Shown: positions 24,808 to 26,237 of the stretch, piece by piece
How positions within the stretch are numbered: the first letter of the stretch is position 1
Layout: every line of letters begins with the position of its first letter
Assembly (NCBI GenBank): GCA_014799405.1
Contig: JAAVIA010000040.1
Span: forward strand, 3,743 to 40,876
DNA length: 37,134 nt
Origin: Lachnospiraceae bacterium
GTDB taxonomy: Bacteria > Bacillota > Clostridia > Lachnospirales > Lachnospiraceae
Direction: 5' to 3'
The notes under the pieces: generated by a model
The model's database searches: none
What the model was told of the DNA's origin: nothing
The model's input: only the letters and a program-made list of their open reading frames with translations
Translations under genes and position numbers: made by a program

Positions 24808-25269
24808 ATGGGGAGTTTTATTATGTCTTCAAACACAAAAATAGTTGTCCTAAAGTCAAAAGAGCTTATTTACACCGGCATATTTATAATACTCGGAGTA
24901 CTCTTGGTGTTGCTTTTGTTTTACATGTTTTCTCCAAATGATAAGCAGAAAGCAGAAACAGATAACACCGAAGCTGTAACTACATATGCTCCCGGTATTT
25001 ACACATCTTCTATTAACCTCGGCGGAGCCTCACTTCAGGTTTCTGTTACAGTTGACAAAGACTCCGCATCACATGTATCAATAGAGAATCTTGACGAAAC
25101 CGTAACTGCCATGTATCCGCTTATAACACCTTCGCTTGATGAGATTAACTCGCAAATAAACAGCGTCAGCTCTCTTGATGATATTACATACTCCGGTGAC
25201 ACCCAATATACCACCATTATACTTATGGAGGCTGTGAAGCAGGCGCTGGAGCAGGCGGAAGTGAAGTAG
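24808..25269 (+). CDS. Small membrane-anchored protein, FMN-binding-domain-like
   Basis: A 153-residue protein with one membrane anchor at about 19-41, a short linker, and an external domain of about 95 residues. The domain begins PGIYTSSINLGGASLQVSVTV and ends with a helix EAVKQALEQA, the same order as FMN-binding (FMN-bind) domains. The flavinylation motif SGATxT is replaced by SGDTQYTT, so covalent FMN is unlikely. This family call is from pattern only. An ATG at 24823 (148 residues, preceded by GGGGAG) is an equally good start. Its function is unknown. It shares a strand with the phosphoribosyltransferase-like gene 107 bp upstream. Confidence 0.6.
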   Translation: MGSFIMSSNTKIVVLKSKELIYTGIFIILGVLLVLLLFYMFSPNDKQKAETDNTEAVTTYAPGIYTSSINLGGASLQVSVTVDKDSASHVSIENLDETVTAMYPLITPSLDEINSQINSVSSLDDITYSGDTQYTTIILMEAVKQALEQAEVK

Positions 25270-25280
25270 CTTATTATGTG

Positions 25281-25459
25281 TTAGTGACGGAGCAGTCACA
25301 TTGGGAATATTTATATAATAATAACAAAAATACGCTTTCGCTCGTCTCCGACGTAACGGTACTAAGGTGCCAAAATACGTCACCTAAGTACCGACGTCTT
25401 CAAACGATTTTTTCTATTATTATATAAATATTCCCAATGCGACTGCTCCTGTTTCACTA
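25281..25459. mobile_element. Palindromic element with 35-bp inverted arms (MITE-like)
   Basis: Arms at 25289-25323 and 25415-25449 are 35 bp each with a single mismatch; the outer ends begin GGAGCAGTC. Outside them TAGTGA (25282-25287) and TCACTA (25454-25459) continue the symmetry. Inside, a second imperfect hairpin is formed by GACGT (25350-25354) with ACGTC (25394-25398), CGGTACT (25357-25363) with AGTACCG (25387-25393), and AGGTG (25365-25369) with CACCT (25381-25385). There is no open frame of interest. The centre is richer in G+C than the AT-rich arms. It lies between convergent genes, which is a common site for MITEs or REP-like repeats, and it could also act as a bidirectional terminator. 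Only one copy is present here, so mobility is unproven. Confidence 0.6.
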
Positions 25460-25544
25460 TTACTCATAACTTAGCATGTATACTATCAAAACTTATTTTT
25501 TTGTTAATATGTGATACCATAGCAAGCACCGTAAAATCCGCTTT

Positions 25545-26237
25545 TTATTCGGTTTTGGCCGCTATTATTCCTCCCGTTTTGTATATGCTGTCTGACGGTA
25601 CATATCCTCTTACAGGGGACAGCGGATATATGTTCGTATTTCTGCCGATTACGCTTCCCGGATTAAGAACACTGTTGCAACCAACCTCAACATGGTCGCC
25701 GAGCATGGCTCCGAATTTCTTAAGCTCCGTGTTTATGTCAAAGTCTCCATCTGAGTTTTTACCCTTTACATGTACAAGTGTTTTGTCGCTTTTTACGTTT
25801 GAGGTTATTGAGCCTGCACCCATATGGGATTTGTATCCCAGTATGGAATCCCCCACATAATTGTAATGTGGCACCTGTACGTTATCAAATATAATCACGT
25901 TTTTAAGCTCCGTAGAATTACCTACAACGCAGGAGGATCCTACAAGGGCGTTTCCTCTTATAAATGCACACTGCCTTACCTCCGTATCAGCGCCTATTAT
26001 TGTTGGGCCTGCAATATATGCCGAGGCAAATACCTTTGCAGTTTTGTGTATCCATATCTGAGGCGATACCTCATCATATTCGTTTTTGTCAAGACGACTT
26101 CCCAATTCAAGAATATAGTCCTTTATGTTCGGTAATGCCTCCCACGGATAGGTAAGCTTCTCCAAGTATTCCTTTGCCATCGTGTGCTCAAGGCTGTACA
26201 TGCTTTTTATTGTCAGTTCCGAAATAATGTCATTCAT
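25545..26237 (-). CDS. Left-handed beta-helix (GlmU C-terminal-like) protein
   Basis: This 230-residue protein is made of hexapeptide repeats of the left-handed beta-helix type (for example IHKTAKVFASAYIAGPTIIGADTEVR and VGDSILGYKSHMGAGSITSNVKSD). It resembles the C-terminal acetyltransferase domain of GlmU, with an added N-terminal region of about 60 residues, but without the nucleotidyltransferase domain. Such proteins are often annotated as UDP-N-acetylglucosamine pyrophosphorylase-related. An acyltransferase or binding role is possible; the substrate is not determined. It is 77 bp downstream of topB and is the last gene before the palindromic element. Confidence 0.75.
   Translation of the reverse strand: MNDIISELTIKSMYSLEHTMAKEYLEKLTYPWEALPNIKDYILELGSRLDKNEYDEVSPQIWIHKTAKVFASAYIAGPTIIGADTEVRQCAFIRGNALVGSSCVVGNSTELKNVIIFDNVQVPHYNYVGDSILGYKSHMGAGSITSNVKSDKTLVHVKGKNSDGDFDINTELKKFGAMLGDHVEVGCNSVLNPGSVIGRNTNIYPLSPVRGYVPSDSIYKTGGIIAAKTE

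Follow-up and report, generated by a model that had tools for sequence, protein, structure and literature searches.

Bacterial MITEs are short, non-coding, dispersed elements that have terminal inverted repeats and are flanked by target duplications. The ends are what usually identifies a short mobile repeat in bacteria, and a conserved centre combined with variable ends is not usual in MITEs that arise by internal deletion. ERIC and BOX, found in other hosts, are modular palindromic repeats with inserted segments, and the family described here can be likened to them by description, not by sequence. The GTAG and CGTC REPs, together with BIMEs and REPINs, are palindromic and intergenic and occupy convergent or codirectional gaps. 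Di Nocera 2013 (PMC3733652) reports that some REP dimers lie within longer palindromes, that CGTC REPs occur without a transposase, and that CGTC REPs have stems of 8–9 bp beginning with A-T pairs, loops of 4–5 and an unpaired tag. The mitochondrial repetitive hairpin-forming elements (PMC2800124) are dispersed intergenic hairpins that are thought to be mobile.

The palindrome studied here lies in a 37,134-nucleotide stretch (the window) of contig C40 (JAAVIA010000040.1) of a Lachnospiraceae bacterium, whose 2.8-Mb draft genome is designated G000; window coordinates equal contig positions minus 3742. The family to which it belongs shares with MITEs the short, non-coding, dispersed form with terminal inverted repeats and, in one lineage, target duplications, but its copies have in common a folded centre of ~85 nt while their arms and ends differ. 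It resembles the REPs, BIMEs and REPINs in its palindromic form and in its intergenic position in convergent and codirectional gaps, and its sense core contains CGTC. However, compared with the CGTC REPs as characterized in PMC3733652, the CGTC here is paired, the helix begins with GG, the inner span is longer, the arms reach 43 nt, and G000 has no Y1 transposase; assignment to the GTAG/CGTC REPs was rejected, since the unpaired tag and A-T start of a CGTC REP disagree with the pairing and the GG start. The likeness to the mitochondrial elements, which belong to different genomes, is one of description and not of sequence or mechanism.

The original prediction, made from the sequence alone, described a single palindrome whose 35-bp arms, with one mismatch, enclose a second hairpin. 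The inner 35 bp of the arms (25289–25323 with 25415–25449) indeed contain exactly one mismatch, and the arms extend to 43 nt each, 93% complementary and spaced by 75 nt. The minimum free energy of the element is −85.6 kcal/mol vs a shuffle mean of −32.1 (z = −13.97), and none of 200 shuffled sequences was as stable. The enclosed hairpin is real and corresponds to the conserved core of the family, and the proposed G+C enrichment holds, with 51% between the arms vs 28% in 25282–25331. The location was also correctly read as a convergent gap; it separates a 153-aa ORF on the plus strand from the beta-helix gene on the minus strand, which encodes a hexapeptide-repeat protein. No gene-like frame was found in the element, as had been claimed; a mechanically called 101-aa ORF (25078–25383, minus strand) extends into it and is mostly antisense to the left gene.

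Table 1 Positions of the palindromic element, its structural parts and its neighbours in the window, and loci of the nested copies.
Feature	Position or loci	Strand	Basis
Whole palindromic element, family copy	25281–25459	none	Fold and arms; relatives in own and public genomes
P1 left arm	25289–25331	none	93% complementary to 25407–25449
P1 right arm	25407–25449	none	93% complementary to 25289–25331
Structured core, full-length match to covariance model R1	25330–25414	−	G000:C40:29072-29156:-, 84.3 bits, E 9e-20
Mini-hairpin GC-GAAA-GC, GNRA tetraloop	25334–25341	−	GNRA in 84 of 87 aligned cores
Conserved helix, side one, two-base bulge at 25355–25356	25350–25362	−	Alignment and covariation
P3 hairpin, apical loop GTATTTT (25372–25378)	25366–25384	−	Inner-loop comparison
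Conserved helix, opposite side	25388–25398	−	Alignment and covariation
Left neighbour, 153-aa ORF	24808–25269	+	Context only; no Pfam match
Right neighbour, hexapeptide-repeat (left-handed beta-helix) protein	25545–26237	−	Context only; PF00132, 48.8 bits
Complete nested copies	L034, L036, L038, L039, L040, L042, L044, L046, L048, L102, L103, L106		

An alignment of 87 non-redundant cores, from which spans outside 42–48 nt were excluded, shows that the core is nearly constant over ~85 nt and that it is conserved on one strand only, which is the minus strand in the window. The constant parts on the sense strand are ACGTCGGTACTTA, a GTNYTTT apical loop, GTACCGYTACGT with the two-base bulge of the conserved helix, and a GC-GNRA-GC mini-hairpin. 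The 84 GNRA tetraloops comprise GAAA (33), GAGA (30), GCAA (8), GGGA (6), GGAA (4) and GCGA (3), and the inner stem pair of the mini-hairpin is C-G in 66 cores and T-A in 14. The arms and inner stems covary: 401 cells are double-changed vs 158 in shuffles, none of 500 of which reached the observed value, and vs 84–168 in slid controls. The count of pair types stands out less, with 18 of the 500 shuffles reaching it. The inner loops are represented by 118 distinct sequences, 75 of them 19 nt long; these 75 P3 loops contain 46 different stem halves and 416 Watson–Crick pairs out of 450, with 8 G.T and 1 A.C. The stems vary by compensated changes, and the core they surround stays fixed on one strand. 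Searches of the window against Rfam 15 yielded no match at the gathering score, so identity with a known structured RNA was rejected, and at E values up to 5 only IRES_Kv1_4 appeared (16.4 bits vs a gathering score of 100). The antisense strand of the core at 25350–25398 may resemble the 23S rRNA stretch around helices 69–71 (the I-CeuI site), although a search of the draft for a motif of that stretch, allowing 1 mismatch, gave no hit.

The element is single within the window, as predicted, but not within the genome, where core copies number dozens. A BLAST search of the draft with a 201-bp query gave 75 matches, several per copy and some representing the palindrome read backwards. At up to 3 mismatches, a 25-nt motif of the core occurs at 50 sites vs 0 in the control, and the covariance model, built from 69 of the 87 aligned cores with 18 left out, matches at least 30 times, 30 being the number of candidates scored. 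The inner 14 nt, GCTGTCGCACTAAG, of the outer stem GGGGCTGTCGCACTAAG occur with up to 2 mismatches at 130 sites of the genome vs 10 in the control, and some of these sites are short terminator-like hairpins without a core (for example L109–L118). Copies lie within ~250 bases of contig ends in C19, C25, C27, C29, C34, C42, C47, C58 and C60 and at the end of C5, and the hairpins therefore probably break the assembly.

Beyond the genome, public genomes contain at least 113 stretches with a two-part core pattern. Lachnospiraceae is named in 48 of 80 titles among the core-pattern matches listed, and most of the others name clostridial groups; four of the listed titles, from two MAGs, carry the unchecked labels Gastranaerophilales or Bacteroides. 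With the window copy as query, BLAST matched 15 of the 25 genus genomes and none of the 16 genomes that represent 16 other families of the order. Of 146 genomes of the order, the covariance model matches 11, every one of them within the family of the window, and was negative in four further named family members and in the remaining 131 genomes, 115 of which are not individually named. Two loci, L172 and L207, have similar arms. In three stretches of G142 (L278, L279 and L280) cores repeat every few kilobases between adjacent ORFs. Viral contigs and plasmids gave no match, and phages gave one matching record, L287 (MT839589.1), which is unannotated and whose ORFs look bacterial by eye. This 4172-base sequence from human faeces, deposited as an unverified bacteriophage, holds a core at 30–100 and a separate palindrome with perfect 30-nt arms at 168–197 and 379–408.

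The occupancy of orthologous sites differs between closely related genomes. Three sister genomes, G001, G015 and G011, were searched for the flanks of 19 copies from G000, and 15 sites were compared by eye on alignments, with L013, L019, L020 and L038 left out. The element is wholly absent from at least one sister at 10 of the 15 sites (L010, L011, L012, L015, L018, L024, L025, L026, L027 and L046); only the core is missing at L010 in G001, and the element is present at L015 in G015. A plain terminator-like hairpin stands in place of the element at L024 and L046, at the latter in both sisters. At three sites (L017, L021 and L034) the sister has only a short core-less hairpin where G000 has a long one. 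The element is degenerate in both sisters at L039, and at L040 the core is missing in G001 and present in G015. The window's own site is occupied in G001, G015 and G022 by palindromes whose arms or core stems differ, and in G011 by a short plain hairpin. Downstream of the LbH gene in G023, G016 and G008 (L088, L090 and L095), the orthologous site contains another nested palindrome, around GATTCGCTCAGAAACCGAA...TTCGGTTTCGTGCGAAT.

One lineage, whose ends read TAGGYAATTGCGAAACT or a variant of it, is a unit of 208–212 bp (211 bp in 10 of 13 units) that carries terminal inverted repeats and target duplications, and this lineage belongs to the MITEs. Using repeats of 8–12 bp, a one-base shift and a score of at least 5, duplications were detected in 9 of the 13 units vs 6 of 156 mismatched flank pairs, and the observed sum was attained in none of 5000 permutations. 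An earlier version of the test, with 19 units (six with other ends) and lengths of 8–10, likewise gave 0 of 2000 shuffles. An exact 13-bp repeat is present on both flanks of L217, and the flank repeats of L025, L133, L160 and L253 are below the score. With up to 2 mismatches allowed, 23 of 60 genomes in the family contain ends of the TAGGYAATTGCGAAACT type; two genomes have 50 and 68 such sites vs 0 and 1 in the control, the window's genome has 17 vs 2, and several of the 60 have counts no higher than the control. For the window's own lineage no target duplications were seen at the compared orthologous sites. The search of the genome and its relatives thus returned many copies, with flanking duplications in one lineage and arms that covary. 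The MITE- or REP-like character proposed in the original prediction is borne out by the dispersed copies, by their presence or absence at orthologous sites and by these target duplications; a lone conserved copy without covariation, the case it had set against a mobile repeat, is excluded by the dispersed copies and covarying stems.

The core and the arms are combined in more than one way. The same core is found under different arms in one genome: three copies in G000 match the window copy over the core only (query positions 58–142, 94–98% identity), and their arms differ. Cores are also nested in cores, and in all 12 of the 12 complete nested copies the inverted core lies within the outer core. 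Among 18 hand-sorted copies with readable arm polarity the inner block points one way in 14 and the other way in 4, as would be expected from occasional inversion between the arms. Some core-less hairpins hold, by eye, a piece of one arm at their tip, as slippage deletion would leave.

Candidate enzymes were sought in the genomes of the genus. The Y1 transposase (PF01797) occurs in 5 of 25 genomes and, among the 15 BLAST carriers, only in G004 and G023; it was not found in G000, G001, G011 or G015, and RAYT/REP identity was rejected on this basis. The group II maturase (PF08388) occurs in 3 of the 25 (G006, G014 and G024), of which G014 and G024 are carriers. It too was not found in G000, G001, G011 or G015, and derivation from a group II intron was therefore rejected. 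No transposase-sized pair of ends enclosing a transposase was present in the loci examined or among the sites listed. Core pairs as the ends of a larger transposon were rejected since the L275/L276 pair encloses a DUF2334/polysaccharide-deacetylase-like gene; ORFs also lie between the cores of L277–L280. A 2286-bp end pair in L217 was rejected as the parent because its ORFs look metabolic by eye and one end belongs to a 211-bp unit.

One core strand is favoured, as RNA or as single-stranded DNA. The structured RNA suggested in the original prediction holds as far as a structured strand is concerned, with covariation in all stems and loops that are fixed on one strand; this evidence fits RNA and single-stranded DNA alike. 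It is possible, if doubtful, that the core is a functional RNA, such as a ribozyme or a protein-binding RNA, that has its own role and travels as a passenger of hairpin transposons. The GNRA tetraloops favour this, as does the sense strand, which folds better in 131 of 167 copies (813 G-U pairs vs 590) and on which G.T exceeds A.C in P3 (8 to 1, as above) and in P1 (137 vs 87 over 126 copies, with 7 more lacking the stem); in P2 the counts are 9 G.T vs 3 A.C where the stem has 4 or more pairs, and 15 vs 14 over all 92. However, the P1 excess is not above that of unidirectional terminators in the same DNA (29 G.T vs 16 A.C; bidirectional ones have 16 vs 5), which it resembles, and therefore RNA and DNA are not separated by the strand test. 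Moreover, the bias is reversed for P2 and P3 together on the gapped alignment (16 vs 33), and no Rfam family matches. Nor is the orientation tied to genes. Between codirectional genes, 46 of the 167 copies share the direction of their neighbours and 44 oppose it; convergent gaps hold 31 copies and divergent gaps 10, and the count leaves aside 26 copies at edges, 7 within ORFs and 3 distant from ORFs. The even orientation and the gap counts argue against a gene-tied cis-regulatory RNA and for tolerance behind genes.

The excess of convergent over divergent gaps also suits terminators that have grown into palindromes by local duplication and are immobile, as do the many relatives that follow stop codons with A/T-flanked stems and the plain terminator at the L046 site in both sisters. 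A bidirectional terminator, one of the options of the original prediction, fits many relatives, but not the window copy: there were no terminator-like sites in 25200–25560 in a scan limited to loops of 3–8, and in that scan the copy fails the intrinsic-terminator test of a G+C-rich stem followed by a U-run. A fixed 85-nt core is unnecessary for terminators, near-identical copies are dispersed, and the target duplications refute a terminator-only origin for the lineage that carries them; as an account of the family it is very improbable. Alternatively, the core itself may be mobile, a folded single strand that inserts at the centre of palindromes already present, whether these are hairpins of terminators or further cores; most of the arm sequence would then be target, and nested hairpins would result. 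Unrelated arms around the same core in one genome, core within core in every complete nested copy, and the short or plain hairpins of the sisters at L017, L021 and L034 agree with such insertion. However, the short hairpins may equally be slippage deletions, some of them with part of one arm left at the tip; in the target-duplication lineage the arms and core form a single unit of constant length; and a search of G000 for the Y1 transposase gave no recombinase that acts on folded DNA. Insertion of the core alone seems unlikely.

The window element probably belongs, as one of many copies, to a superfamily of short mobile hairpins in Lachnospiraceae that are non-autonomous and MITE- or REP-like and share a structured core. 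Under this MITE- or REP-like reading, a transposase supplied in trans would read the outer ends and move the copies, which may survive in gaps behind genes, often replacing a terminator. The core would be retained because some factor reads the folded single strand, as RNA or DNA, and slippage could later remove the hairpin tips, giving rise to short core-less hairpins. Against it, target duplications are limited to one lineage, which is not that of the window, no parent transposon was found among the places listed, and a fixed centre with variable ends is atypical of internal-deletion MITEs. More tentatively, the ~85-nt core, with its three-way junction, GNRA mini-hairpin and fixed apical loop, might be a portable folded domain, a signal for mobility or survival read as single-stranded DNA or RNA, that is exchanged among unrelated hairpin transposons and also enters terminator tips and those of its own copies, building nested hairpins layer by layer.

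This is a widespread family of mobile hairpins with a conserved core that is absent from Rfam 15, and no report of the element appeared among the matches listed in searches of open-licence papers. The nested copies form a natural record of the growth and shrinkage of long palindromes, and several draft contig ends fall in them. Across a gut-bacterial family the inside of the element is kept while its arms and ends are replaced, an indication of a factor that reads the folded strand, and the alignment and covariance model make such a factor searchable.
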